Both the position numbers and the translations under genes were made by a program. From Paraconexibacter algicola (GTDB lineage Bacteria; Actinomycetota; Thermoleophilia; Solirubrobacterales; Solirubrobacteraceae), in contig NZ_PYYB01000001.1 in NCBI RefSeq assembly GCF_003044185.1, forward strand, positions 2,252,978-2,316,977: a stretch of DNA of 64,000 bases. The letters are read 5' to 3'. Positions 1-6,215 of the stretch are shown piece after piece (the first letter of the stretch is position 1; each line of letters starts with the position of its first letter). Under the pieces are notes generated by a model. That model saw only the letters and a list, made by a program, of their open reading frames with translations, was not told the DNA's origin and did not search any database.

Positions 1-471
1 GCTGCCGAGACACCGGTCGCACAGGCATTCGAGCCCAGCACTGCCGCCCGGACGTGAAACGCGTGCGGCGCCCAGCTTTGCACGCCTGAGCGGATCTTCC
101 GGGTAGGAGTCGCCCGCCGTGATTCCGCAGAACCGGCACAGGTAGTCCGCGGCCGCGAGGACCGCCTGACGTTCCTTGGCCGTGGGCACTTTGGGCGCGC
201 GCGACTCGTAGCCAGGCTCCCAAACCGCGCCGCCCATCGCCTGAAGTCGCAACTGCTCAGGCGCGAGGGTGACGTCTTCGCGGTTTGTCGCGATCACCCA
301 GCCTTCAGCCCGGAGGTCGCGCATACGACGATCGACTTGTTCAACGCCCTCGAACGCCGCTCGGAGGTCGGCTTTAGTGAAGACGCCTCCGACGCCCACC
401 TCGGACGCCAGCCACAGCGCGACGCGAGTTCGCGTGCCCGCGTCAGATGCGCGCCAATCCGGGAGACTCAT
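1..471 (-). CDS. Winged-helix + HNH-type endonuclease (C-terminus off window)
   Basis: Frame open from an ATG at 471 to the left edge (157 codons seen, no stop). Residues about 1-75 read like a winged-helix unit: two helices, the helix DRRMRDLRAEGWVI and a wing. Residues about 97-157 carry a CRFCG zinc knuckle and, 40 residues later, CDRC, with AKERQAVLAAADYLC between the two parts. That order is typical of small HNH endonucleases of actinobacterial restriction loci. The HNH histidines must lie off the window, so catalysis cannot be judged. The gene diverges from the ParB-helicase-DUF3883 operon over 66 bp, and its GGAGAGG ribosome site lies inside the 22-bp palindrome, so it may be autoregulated. 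A partner such as a methyltransferase may lie further left. The nuclease call is family knowledge; the wHTH is by eye. Confidence 0.6.
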   Translation of the reverse strand, partial: MSLPDWRASDAGTRTRVALWLASEVGVGGVFTKADLRAAFEGVEQVDRRMRDLRAEGWVIATNREDVTLAPEQLRLQAMGGAVWEPGYESRAPKVPTAKERQAVLAAADYLCRFCGITAGDSYPEDPLRRAKLGAARVSRPGGSAGLECLCDRCLGS

Positions 472-1969: not shown

Positions 1970-3766
1970 TTGCTCAACCTGCAGTTCGCCACAGAGGCCG
2001 GATTCGTCGAGATGAGCAGCGACGAAGCGCACGCTTCGTCGCTGCAGCACCTGAGCATGCGCTTCGGGACCGCGCGCATGCTCGGACAGCGATCAACCGT
2101 CATCGCTATTGACGACTTCCTGCTCAACCTGCCGGAAATCGCGTCGTGGCCCGCCGAGGATCACTCCAACGTCATCTGGCAGCCCGAGCTGCTTGATCTC
2201 GTCCAGAGCAGCGACTCCGACGCGCGGGTCATGAATTCCCGACTCACGCAAGACCAGGAGACTGGCCAGCACTTCGAGCTAGGTGACGAGTGGACCGCCC
2301 CGCTGACCGACTTTCAGCGGCGGGACGTAGGAGCGCTGATTGGGCTTACGCACGGAGCCAACTTCAGCGTCCCGGGCGCCGGCAAGACACGGGCGGCGCT
2401 CGCGGTATTCCAGGAGCGGCGCCTGCGGGGGGCGGTCGAACGCTGCCTCGTCGTGTGCCCCAAGCCGGTATTCGAGAGCTGGGAGGACGAGATCGCACAG
2501 TGCTTCGCGCGCGACAGCATCACCGTGACCTCAATGACTGACAGCGTCGTCCCGCCGACGGACGTCGTTCTCATCAACTACGAGCGCCTTCCCGACGCAG
2601 TCTCCCCGCTGACGCACTGGTTGCGTCGCAATCCGGCGATGCTGATTCTTGACGAGGCGCACAGGACCAAGCGAGGGCCCGGCGGCGCATGGGGATCAGC
2701 GAGTCTTGCTCTCGGACCCTACGCTCGATCACGCCTGATCCTCTCGGGAACACCAGCGCCGAACGGAGCCCGAGACCTTGAGAACCTCATGGGTTTCGTC
2801 TGGCCGGGTCGCGGCAGGAGGGCCGTTTCGCAAGCCCTCGCTGGGCGGGACCTGAAAGCGGCAAGTCAGCTCCTCCGTCCGCTGTTCGTTCGCACGACCA
2901 AGGCTGAGCTGGGGCTCCCTCCCGTGAACAGGGTCGTGCGGCAGATCGACCTCCCGCCGCTGCACCGGGAGATCTACCGCGCGCTTGTCGGCCAGGCCAG
3001 TTCATCCTTGACGGGAACGGAGGATGCTGACGCTCTTGGCCGCGTGCTGCTGTATCTCCTCATGGCTGCGACGACACCGGCGCTCCTCGCCGTGGGCTCG
3101 TCCAAGTACGAGCCGCTGCCGTACCGCGTGCCACCGCTCGAGATTCCCGAGCACACCGATCTTGCTACCGCGATGCGCGATCTACCGCTGTACGAGATTT
3201 CGCCGAAGTACCGCGAGGTCGCCAGTATCGTCGCGGCCAACGCAGCCCGCGGGCGCAAGACCCTGGTCTGGTCGACGTTCGTGCGCAACCTGACCTCACT
3301 CCAGACATTCCTGGGTCGCTTTCAGCCGGCGATGGTGCATGGTGGCACCGAGGACCGTGCCGCTGAACTCGACCGGTTCCGGCACGACGGCAACTGCATG
3401 GTGCTTCTGTCGAATCCGGCCACGCTTGGTGAAGGCGTGAGCCTCCATCAGGTCTGCAACGACGCCGTGTACATCGACCGCGACTTTGCGGCAGGCCGCT
3501 TCCTACAGAGCGTTGATCGAATCCATCGTCTCGGTCTCCCGCCCGAGACCGAGACGAACGTCACTTTCTTGATCGCGACGGACACGATCGACGAACTCGT
3601 ACGAGTGCGCCTCGAGCGCAAACTCGACTTCATGGGAAGCGTGCTCGACGATCCCGCAGTCTTGACGCTCACCGACTTCGACGAAGAGCCCAGCGCATCT
3701 GCGGGAATGAACGACGCCGATGTCGCGGCGCTGATCGGACACTTGCGTTCAAGTGCTCCCGCCTAG
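1970..3766 (+). CDS. SNF2-family (SF2) DNA helicase/translocase
   Basis: 598 aa from a TTG 1 nt after the ParB stop, with GAAGAAG upstream; an in-frame ATG at 2012 is an alternative. Motif I is SVPGAGKT (about residues 133-140), with Gly-Ala-Gly-Lys-Thr in place of the commoner GxGKT. Motif II is LILDEAHRTK (about 225-234) and motif III is LILSGTPAPNG. In the second RecA domain come TLVWSTFVRNL, VMHGGTEDRAAELDRF, LLSNPATLGEGVSLH and motif VI SVDRIHRLG. The Q-motif-like FQRRDVGALIGLTHG precedes motif I. This is a compact SNF2 core without large accessory domains. It likely moves along dsDNA, delivering the ParB-type and DUF3883 proteins. It overlaps the next gene by 14 nt, implying co-translation. 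Confidence 0.88.
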   Translation: MLNLQFATEAGFVEMSSDEAHASSLQHLSMRFGTARMLGQRSTVIAIDDFLLNLPEIASWPAEDHSNVIWQPELLDLVQSSDSDARVMNSRLTQDQETGQHFELGDEWTAPLTDFQRRDVGALIGLTHGANFSVPGAGKTRAALAVFQERRLRGAVERCLVVCPKPVFESWEDEIAQCFARDSITVTSMTDSVVPPTDVVLINYERLPDAVSPLTHWLRRNPAMLILDEAHRTKRGPGGAWGSASLALGPYARSRLILSGTPAPNGARDLENLMGFVWPGRGRRAVSQALAGRDLKAASQLLRPLFVRTTKAELGLPPVNRVVRQIDLPPLHREIYRALVGQASSSLTGTEDADALGRVLLYLLMAATTPALLAVGSSKYEPLPYRVPPLEIPEHTDLATAMRDLPLYEISPKYREVASIVAANAARGRKTLVWSTFVRNLTSLQTFLGRFQPAMVHGGTEDRAAELDRFRHDGNCMVLLSNPATLGEGVSLHQVCNDAVYIDRDFAAGRFLQSVDRIHRLGLPPETETNVTFLIATDTIDELVRVRLERKLDFMGSVLDDPAVLTLTDFDEEPSASAGMNDADVAALIGHLRSSAPA

Positions 3767-4658
3767 CGATGTCCTGCGGGCCGCGACCCGGTGGCTACGG
3801 TTGCTGCAGACGTCCACCCGGGACCAGGCATGGGAACTGGTCCGCGCGCGCGCCGCATACGCCGATGTTTCGTTGACCCAGTACGGGTTGGCCGAGGACC
3901 TGCTCCGCGAGACTGGCCTGATCGCACCGCATTCATCGTCAAGTCAGCTTCGAGAAGACCTGACCGACGCTTCGTCCGAGGTGCTTTCGACAGCGCTCTT
4001 CGACGCCATGCTGTCGGCGGCGAACCCCCGGTGGTTGCCGGATGCCGACCTCTTGGTCCCTACGCTGGACGACTTGCCCGCGGACGCAGCGGAGGCGGCC
4101 GACGCTGTGGGGCTGTCGGAAGCGGCCGCATTTCTCGCGATCGAGCGCGCACAGCGCAAGTTCGATGCCACCGATCGTGCCGCCGTTGGGACGGCTGGTG
4201 AACAAGCCCTGGTAGAGCTCCTCGAAGCCGATTACCCGGGCGGGGTCGACCATGTCTCCCAGCGCGACGACACGCTCGGATACGACATCAGGGTCGACAC
4301 CGGCGATGCGTCCTGGCACCTTGAGGTCAAGAGCACGACTCGACGAGGGCGACTGACGGTGTTTCTGTCCCGCAACGAGTTCCTGGTCGCCCAGCACGAC
4401 GCGGCGTGGAAGCTCGTAGTAGTTGGACTTCGAGAAGACCTTTCCCCGGGCGCAGTCTGCACTGGTAGTCGTCCCGCCCTGTGGGAGGCGGCTCCTACCG
4501 ACCGCCCCGGAGCGAGATGGGAGACCGCGCGTTTCGATCTTGCGCCAGAAAGTCTGACGCTCGGACTCCCGTTTCTCCCGAAGGCCGAGCAGACCATGCA
4601 CCTGGTCTCGCAACGCCACCGGTTCGGCTGGGCGCCAGCGACTAGCGGACATCAGTGA
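3753..4658 (+). CDS. DUF3883 (PD-(D/E)XK-like nuclease) protein
   Basis: 301 aa from a GTG inside the helicase gene (14-nt overlap). Residues 145-225 match the DUF3883 pattern: GTAGEQALVELLEA, then VDHVSQRDDTLGYDIRV, HLEVKSTTRRG and FLSRNEFLVAQ. Glu150, Asp178 and the Glu191-Val-Lys193 triad sit where a PD-(D/E)XK restriction fold places its metal-binding residues, so nuclease activity is plausible. The N-terminal 140 residues are helical with no match I can name. DUF3883 occurs at the C-terminus of NO VEIN-type and defence proteins; here it is a separate subunit next to a helicase. The C-terminal 60 residues look like a small beta extension. Two hairpins follow, so the operon probably ends here. 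Confidence 0.75.
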   Translation: MLPPSDVLRAATRWLRLLQTSTRDQAWELVRARAAYADVSLTQYGLAEDLLRETGLIAPHSSSSQLREDLTDASSEVLSTALFDAMLSAANPRWLPDADLLVPTLDDLPADAAEAADAVGLSEAAAFLAIERAQRKFDATDRAAVGTAGEQALVELLEADYPGGVDHVSQRDDTLGYDIRVDTGDASWHLEVKSTTRRGRLTVFLSRNEFLVAQHDAAWKLVVVGLREDLSPGAVCTGSRPALWEAAPTDRPGARWETARFDLAPESLTLGLPFLPKAEQTMHLVSQRHRFGWAPATSGHQ

Positions 4659-4691: not shown

Positions 4692-4730
4692 GGGGTTCCT
4701 GACCCCAGACTTCCGCCCGTCGCCCACGGG
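4692..4730 (+). terminator. Tandem hairpins after the defence operon
   Basis: GGGGT (4692-4696) pairs with ACCCC (4702-4706) over a 5-nt loop, and CCCGT (4716-4720) pairs with ACGGG (4726-4730) over a 5-nt loop, starting 33 nt after the DUF3883 stop. There is no T-tract, as is usual in actinobacteria, so termination is inferred from position. The remaining bases up to the tRNA-like fragment show no gene. Confidence 0.4.
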
Positions 4731-4841
4731 TCCACTTCGGGGTCCAAAGTGAGCGTTTGGAACCCGACTCAGACGAACTCAGGTACCCTCAGCGCCCATG
4801 AACGCTGGGTTTCTCGCTCAGCGGAACCATCTCAGTGGCGC

Positions 4842-4884
4842 TGGGAGCCGGGCGGTCGCAGGTTCAAGGCCTGTCTCCCCGACC
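4842..4884 (+). other. tRNA-Pro-like 3' half: probable attachment-site scar
   Basis: The last half of a tRNA is recognisable: TGGGA (anticodon TGG plus G37, A38), GCCGG, a variable loop, T-stem GCAGG (4858-4862), loop TTCAAGG, CCTGT, acceptor strand CTCCCCG, discriminator A and CC. An intact gene would need CGGGGAG about 70 nt upstream and a pairing 5' anticodon strand; neither is present (GGGTTTC and GTGGC are found). So this is a 3' fragment, not a working tRNA. The CTCCCCG acceptor and TGG anticodon point to tRNA-Pro. Fragments running from anticodon to 3' end are typical att duplications of integrative elements. It falls where base composition changes, supporting an island boundary. Confidence 0.5.
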
Positions 4885-4937: not shown

Positions 4938-5190
4938 TGGACAGTGTCTGGGGCATTGGTACCGGCACGCGCCCAGGTGAATGCGACGGGTCGCTCGCCA
5001 CGGTGCTCGACGTAGTCCGCGGGGCCGAGGAACGTGAAGGGCTGCGTACCGAGTTCGGACTGCTTGCGCTCCCGGACGAAACGCAAGACGTGCGTGCCGA
5101 GGGCCTGGTGGTTGATGTACCGCTTGGCTGCTCAGCCGTCTGGCGGAACTGCGATTCCCAGTGGAACAGCTCGCGGTTGATGGCGTAGTC
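4938..5190 (-). pseudogene. Remnant of a DUF3427-containing SF2 helicase C-terminus, frameshifted
   Basis: On the minus strand, 5190-5128 encodes DYAINRELFHWESQFRQTAE. After a frame change at about 5124-5128, another frame continues with RYINHQALGTHVLRFVRERK, then PFTFLGPADYVEHRGERPV and AFTWA. Together these follow the DUF3427 pattern (LFHWqSQ, RYInH, vLlFVRe, YtFLGpadYvsHeGerPm) found at the C-terminus of DEAD/DEAH helicases, some from defence loci. No helicase motifs remain upstream: beyond 5190 the opposite strand holds another gene. So only about the last 85 residues of the parent survive, with at least one frameshift. It lies next to the tRNA-like scar and is probably debris of an earlier insertion. 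Confidence 0.72.
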
Positions 5191-5559
5191 GCGCGGGCCC
5201 GGCGGCGTCGGAGCGGCACGCTGCTGAAGGTCACGCTTGGGGTCGTGCTCGGCGGCACGCTGCTGATCGGCGGGTGCGTCGCGCTCCTCGGCGCCGGGTT
5301 GTCCAGCGAGGAGACGGACGGCATCACGCGCACGCAGTTCGACGGCATCTCCCAGGGAACGCTCCAGCAGACGATCGAGGAGCGGTTCGGCGAGCCGGAG
5401 GACGCGCAGGAGTTCGAGTCGCAGATCCCCGAGCTCGGCGACGCGCCCTCGCGGTCGTCGTGCATCTACTACCCCGAGAAGGGCAAGCCGATCCTGGAGG
5501 GGCAGTCCTTCCAGCTCTGCTTCGACGAGGGTCGGCTGACCTCGAAGAACGCCTACTGA
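5161..5559 (+). CDS. Small exported/membrane protein, N-terminus possibly altered by insertion
   Basis: 132 aa from a GTG at 5161, the only reasonable upstream start. KVTLGVVLGGTLLIGGCVALLGAG (about residues 23-46, here abbreviated in sense to one hydrophobic segment) is a membrane anchor or lipoprotein-like signal with a Cys. The exported part, residues about 50-132, contains DGITRTQFDGI, QTIEERFGEPEDAQEF, CIYYP and SFQLCFDEGRL, a pattern like small actinobacterial BamE/SmpA-type folds with two cysteines that could form a disulfide. The first 10 codons lie opposite the helicase remnant, so the native start was probably lost or replaced when foreign DNA arrived. Function unknown. Confidence 0.55.
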   Translation: MEQLAVDGVVARARRRRSGTLLKVTLGVVLGGTLLIGGCVALLGAGLSSEETDGITRTQFDGISQGTLQQTIEERFGEPEDAQEFESQIPELGDAPSRSSCIYYPEKGKPILEGQSFQLCFDEGRLTSKNAY

Positions 5560-5639
5560 CCCGCGGCTGGCGCGACAGCGACCACCGTCCTGGCGCGCCG
5601 CCACTGTCAGAACACCTGTTCGCATGACGACCGTGGGTC

Positions 5640-6215
5640 ATGCAGCCCGATCTCCGCGTCACCATCCGCCGCGACGGCGTCGTCCGTGCCGTCACCTGGG
5701 GGCCGCATCTGCGGCTGTGCGGGCCGACCGCGACGCTGCTCGAGGCGCGCGACCGGGCCGGGGTCACGCTCGCGGATCTGCGGATCCTGCGCGACGAGGA
5801 GGACGGGCCCGCGACCGAGGTGATCGTCGAGCCGCTGACCGGCACCGGCCGTCCGGATGCGCACCGCGTGCTGGCCGACTGGGCGGCGCTGCTCGGCTAC
5901 CGGCGCGTCTGGCTGCCAGGGGACGTCCGCACGCTCGACACCGTCGACCACGCGCTGGCCGGCTGCGGCGGCAAGGTCCAGACGCACTGCACGACCTGCC
6001 GCGGCCGGCTCGCCGACGGCACGCCCGCCTTCTGGCGCTGGGTCCGCACGCTCGGCTTCTTCCCGTGCGCCTGCCCGCTCTGCGGCGGCGACCTGCCGCA
6101 GTGGTCCGCCGTCCCCGGTGTCGTGCGTCGCGCGTCGGCACGGCCCGCGCCAGATCGCGGCAGCGCGACCGCCGATGTGGGAGTGTCAGACCTCCGGCAC
6201 CCGGAGCGACCCTGA
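5640..6215 (+). CDS. Zinc-ribbon-like hypothetical protein
   Basis: 191 aa from ATG 5640 with a weak GTGGGT upstream. Residues about 1-105 form an alpha/beta domain I do not recognise (RVTIRRDGVVRAVTWG, then VIVEPLTGTG). Residues about 115-150 carry HCTTC, then FPCACPLCGG about 25 residues later, a Cys set suited to one zinc. The C-terminal 40 residues look disordered. The stop is 4 nt before the GTG of the sigma-like gene, so the two are probably co-transcribed and the protein may act with that regulator. No family assignment is made. Confidence 0.55.
   Translation: MQPDLRVTIRRDGVVRAVTWGPHLRLCGPTATLLEARDRAGVTLADLRILRDEEDGPATEVIVEPLTGTGRPDAHRVLADWAALLGYRRVWLPGDVRTLDTVDHALAGCGGKVQTHCTTCRGRLADGTPAFWRWVRTLGFFPCACPLCGGDLPQWSAVPGVVRRASARPAPDRGSATADVGVSDLRHPERP

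Follow-up and report, generated by a model that had tools for sequence, protein, structure and literature searches.

A tRNA-Pro(GGG) 3' half in Paraconexibacter algicola as the probable attachment-site end of a decayed integrase island

Why does the genome of Paraconexibacter algicola carry the 3' half of a tRNA-Pro gene at a place where no complete tRNA accompanies it? The fragment lies near the start of the stretch that we analysed, 64,000 nucleotides of contig NZ_PYYB01000001.1 (positions 2,252,978 to 2,316,977), hereafter the window; the contig itself is referred to as C1, and coordinates without a contig name are those of the window. Mobile islands that insert into tRNA genes are a common bacterial arrangement, and a sequence-only reading of the window had taken the fragment for an attachment site (att) used by an integrase. 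Our results support this view. We consider it very likely (probability about 0.88) that 4723-4883 represents the distal attachment-site end of a decayed island from a family of tyrosine-integrase elements that use tRNA-Pro(GGG) as their insertion site. Three lines of evidence carry this reading: an end of 161 bp that is shared with other elements, a sister element that has its integrase at tRNA-Pro on another contig (C3), and duplications of the same tRNA segment across relatives.

The att identity block covers 4840-4883 on the forward strand and corresponds to nt 32-75 of tRNA-Pro(GGG), that is, from the anticodon loop to the 3' end. In a whole-genome search it matched C3:237796-237839 at 41 of 44 positions (E ~1e-12), within the sole tRNA-Pro(GGG) gene of the genome (C3:237796-237870; ARAGORN call tRNA-Pro(ggg)), which is located on a different contig from the window. 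In the window ARAGORN found no complete tRNA. The sequence-only reading was therefore right that a tRNA 3' half is present without its 5' half, and also that some tRNA gene of the genome shares it; its limits for the fragment, 4842-4884, fell on the block but were off by one or two bases. Its choice of isoacceptor we reject. The TGG anticodon resulted from reading one base early and consists of U33 and the first two anticodon bases, whereas in the register set by the ARAGORN anticodon position of the C3 gene positions 4843-4845 form the anticodon, GGG. The tRNA-Pro(TGG) gene, which had been expected to share the fragment, is a separate and less similar gene (C2:269719-269792). The identity with tRNA-Pro(GGG) stops exactly at the tRNA 3' end, and unlike most other copies this one lacks the native terminator after 4883.

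Similarity to C3 is not confined to the tRNA. The sequence adjoining the att block, 4723-4839 on the forward strand, resembles the distal end of an integrative element on C3, and with the att block included 4723-4883 (161 bp) aligns to C3:228714-228876 with 87% identity over 164 bp, down to the same final base (E = 3.9e-48). On C3, sequence of this type closes an intact element of ~9 kb (C3:228714-237870, L004:7715-16871) that has the intact tRNA-Pro(GGG) at one end, immediately followed by a tyrosine integrase (PF00589, 1.1e-32). The C3 element and the C1 island are alike in the 164-bp right end, the att block and the strand relation, whereas the C3 element differs in having the intact tRNA-Pro(GGG), the integrase and another cargo; beyond the common end nothing else is clearly shared. 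The cargo on C3 comprises an AAA ATPase as well as weak HEPN/AbiU2 and SAP matches, has no PADLOC hit, and possibly consists of defence genes. Ends that are 71-75% identical are found in three other genomes. In two of them the shared end lies ~13 kb (G157) and ~11 kb (G014) from tRNA-Pro(GGG), and in the third (G137) it is on a contig stretch without an intact tRNA-Pro(GGG). The window end also contains a paired repeat with a 12-bp period (GGGTCCACTTC GGGGTCCAAAGTGAG; 4727-4754, forward strand), of which the first copy is decayed. In the C3 and G014 elements the period-12 pair is present at either end, and a similar pair, of type GGGGTCCAA or GGGGAACAA, precedes the tRNA block in most other distal ends. 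These repeats are putative arm-type sites to which the integrase would bind.

We surveyed tRNA-Pro(GGG) in 20 near-complete relatives. All of them (20/20) have one intact gene. About half carry at least one extra 3' fragment that starts at nt 27-36 and mostly ends at nt 74-75, and homologues of the C3 integrase accompany many of these copies. The identity blocks that recur in relatives belong to a well-known kind of island, in which a tyrosine integrase uses an anticodon-centred site. Some 3' halves are orphans that lie a long way from the tRNA gene, in G035 (C1:4450405-4450446) and in G132 (C5:355308, 369238 and 53191); in the surrounding stretches examined, a similarity search found no C3-type integrase near them. 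Such scars are consequently not unique to C1 of P. algicola. The G035 orphan is 100% identical over 42 bp, is followed by a terminator-like hairpin and preceded by coding-like sequence, and resembles the end of a secondary-site insertion. In P. algicola itself, a relative of the integrase with an in-frame TAG is located just downstream of tRNA-Thr(CGT) (G000:C1:2111955-2113260) and is probably another tRNA-linked island remnant.

Based on composition and sequence, the C1 island extends from ~2248382, beside recC, to 2257860 (~9.5 kb), and its GC content is 0.64-0.65 compared with ~0.75 in recC and recB. The left change-point interval (L005 9435-10283; L005 denotes local coordinates on C1, L005:5403-6071 being C1:2244380-2245048) begins at an 18-bp core, C1:2248395-2248412, which matches the tRNA-Pro anticodon stem-loop at 17 of 18 positions on the same strand as the fragment. 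Directly before the core, GGGGCGTGGCGC matches the tRNA 5' end at 11 of 12 positions, with the D-loop missing. Taken together, C1:2248382-2248412 is probably a decayed tRNA-Pro 5' piece, short and GC-rich. The gapped 5' match ranks in the top few of ~6,000 scanned segments, and we estimate the probability of its chance placement at the island border as ~0.001-0.004. However, with gap-tolerant scoring two unrelated segments in ~230 kb score equal or higher, so the remnant is probable rather than proven; ARAGORN called no tRNA in the site rejoined in silico. The sequence-only reading had also predicted an intact tRNA-Pro and a nearby integrase at the other end of the island, and here it was not borne out. 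To the left of the fragment there is no tRNA within ~146 kb, the decayed 5' piece being at most what is left, no integrase lies inside C1:2248382-2257860, and the nearest integrase relative leftward (C1:2140337) is ~108 kb from the left end of the island. These absences count against the att reading, as do the terminator missing after 4883, the single tRNA-Pro(GGG) of every surveyed relative, the shortness and high GC of the left remnant, the lack of an ARAGORN call at the rejoined site, a composition step that lies beyond the fragment, and the scarcity of anything else clearly common to the C1 and C3 elements. A search for an empty site through recC neighbours and right-flank genes gave no shared flank among 60 and 146 relatives. 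As a separate observation, a PIN-domain (VapC-like) gene lies between recC and recB (L005:5403-6071), and in the relatives examined recB is close behind recC.

How might an att end outlive its integrase and its tRNA? The integrase of such an element would normally carry out recombination between attP and the anticodon loop, with its surroundings, in the tRNA-Pro gene. At the integrase end the 3'-half copy borne by the element would then make the tRNA whole again, while the 3' half that the gene had before would be displaced to the far end, giving an expected layout of element arm, anticodon-centred core and displaced tRNA-Pro 3' half. We infer that the crossover falls within the anticodon loop. 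Subsequently, both the integrase and the restored 3' half were probably lost through an IS-linked deletion, which left the island fixed in place. We consider a deletion of this type probable because the left tRNA remnant abuts a truncated Mutator-family transposase (PF00872, 273 aa), of which the genome has no other copy that would define its ends.

From left to right, the cargo of the island consists of the transposase remnant, a DUF7701 protein, an 8xMP membrane protein, a ThsB-like TIR protein, a small protein, a C5-cytosine methyltransferase, a ParB-like protein, an SNF2-type helicase and a NOV_C protein. The methyltransferase gene (PF00145, 3.9e-64; L005:12776-14083) is on the reverse strand, starts within the window (1-83) and runs out of it to the left. 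It is followed on the forward strand by the ParB-like gene (337-1968), so designated by inspection and having no Pfam match, the SNF2 helicase (1970-3766; PF00176, 2.6e-17) and the NOV_C gene (3753-4658; PF13020, 6.9e-9). The helicase is 52-55% identical to 11 actinobacterial homologues. In all 11 of these loci, which were found via the helicase, a ParB-like homologue is directly upstream of the SNF2 gene, and a C5 methyltransferase is within several kb (11/11); a NOV_C gene was seen at a single locus (1/11). The loci belong to Streptomyces, Agromyces, Actinoplanes and Microbispora, and by inspection a Vsr-like gene is often present. PADLOC reported the methyltransferase as DruM2-like and the helicase as a weak match to DrmD, DpdE and ZorD, its similarity to DrmD being far below the NCBIfam cut-off. 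Pfam scans of nine island proteins, and PADLOC scans of seven of these, showed no partners of Druantia type II (DruM/E/F/G) or DISARM (drmA-B-C), and scans of the methyltransferase, ParB-like and SNF2 set revealed no complete known defence system. The TIR-like protein, the methyltransferase, the ParB-like protein, the SNF2 helicase and the NOV_C protein look like a defence set with a restriction-like module, and it is possible that the methyltransferase, ParB-like and SNF2 genes constitute an undescribed module of that type.

The history of the locus is less certain than the att reading, and three histories fit: a local tRNA-Pro copy that has decayed, the remnants of a tandem array, and relocation from elsewhere. 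Insertion into a local copy is favoured by the left 5' remnant. It is disfavoured by the single tRNA-Pro(GGG) in each of the 20 relatives, which would make a second native copy at the C1 locus unusual.

The tandem array draws its support mainly from the sequence to the right of the fragment. A change of composition had been claimed at 4884; the change is real (GC 65% to the left, 75% to the right), but its best point is 5665 (3-logL interval 5156-5744). Foreign-like GC (0.668) extends to ~5190, and 0.3-0.9 kb separate the fragment from the step on its right. Between the two is the helicase debris, which had been correctly noticed: the frameshifted C terminus of a DUF3427-type helicase at ~4970-5190 on the reverse strand, with translations in two frames and outside the att block. 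In tblastn searches it matched plasmid DUF3427/DEAD-box helicases, and its 53-62 aa pieces gave no match in Pfam and NCBIfam scans. Since the composition step is beyond the fragment, helicase debris lies between them and the terminator is missing, it is possible that a second, mostly lost element once stood on the right. If so, 4883 would be a junction formed by tandem insertion or accretion, the left island would be the first element, and the 3' half would be the attP-borne copy of the second. The composition step favours such an array; the debris, as a leftover of the second element, would fit its resemblance to plasmid-borne helicases, several 3' fragments per genome are seen in G035, G132 and G137, and the tRNA identity stops precisely with the 3' end of the gene, as it must in an attP-borne copy. 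However, the sequence to the right of 4883 yielded neither an integrase remnant nor a third att copy, and the helicase debris could be unrelated. We regard the tandem origin as the strongest competitor, though one with odds of roughly one in three.

Relocation would mean that the cargo and the right end were moved, by rearrangement or an IS, from a tRNA-Pro element elsewhere and that the left match is due to chance. The orphan 3' halves of G035 and G132 and the truncated transposase at the left border are in line with this. Nonetheless, the tRNA-like match on the left coincides with the composition border and is correctly oriented, and the end has diverged by 13% from the C3 copy, which argues against a recent local copy event. 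This history seems unlikely to us. Still less probable is insertion into a secondary site next to recC, where a sequence outside any tRNA gene would have served as a mimic of the anticodon stem-loop (CCGGATGGGGGCCGGGCG). The left core does match just the anticodon stem-loop and a few bases, and relatives have one tRNA-Pro(GGG) only; as a precedent, Salmonella genomic island 1 is reported to have a secondary site and to undergo tandem integration (PMC2297512). However, a crossover in the anticodon predicts unrelated chromosome at the right end; a 44-bp tRNA 3' half would be expected there only if a second element had come next, and the additional match to the tRNA 5' end would be left unexplained. 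It is tempting to speculate that tRNA-Pro integrases also use stem-loop mimics, and that the C1 island became part of a tandem array at such a mimic beside recC before an IS-linked loss of the integrase fixed its defence cargo, hidden from tRNA-anchored finders, but we would give such a scenario rather little credence. Finally, the idea that the fragment is tRNA-like by chance or belongs to a structured RNA of another kind can be dismissed, since no point was found in its support and the E values for the 44-bp match and for the 161-bp end, with the same junction as on C3 and an end common to four genomes, already refute it.

If 4723-4883 is the distal end of a tRNA-Pro(GGG) island, how does this island compare with known systems? 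Integrative elements of the pSAM2 type in actinomycetes use the 3' part of tRNA-Pro as att, the isoacceptor being different from tRNA-Pro(GGG). The C1 island is similar in its use of the tRNA-Pro 3' part and differs in that no transfer or replication genes were found in it. In the Islander collection, 3760 islands have 3' fragments and 2083 have anticodon-centred sites (PMC4383910), and by these counts the arrangement is an ordinary one. As in Islander class A, the C1 island has a displaced 3' tDNA fragment reaching from the anticodon loop to the gene's 3' end and an element-specific end with paired repeats that adjoins the att block, and its family includes sister elements whose restored tRNA has a tyrosine integrase as its neighbour; in the C3 sister the intact cognate tDNA is at the other end and in the same orientation. 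Unlike class A, the C1 island has neither an intact cognate tDNA nor an internal integrase, and an Islander-type search would reject it because it demands that the replicon carry a tDNA and that the island contain an integrase. We classify it as a decayed remnant and not as an intact class A member; in other words, it is an ordinary decayed representative of a known kind of mobile island whose biology is well understood. It is of value as a clear-cut case of a grounded tRNA island, one that has kept its att end, lost its integrase and tRNA, and is missed by standard finders. In this bacterial family tRNA-Pro(GGG) is a recurrent insertion site, and the recognisable end sequence could serve to map such elements.
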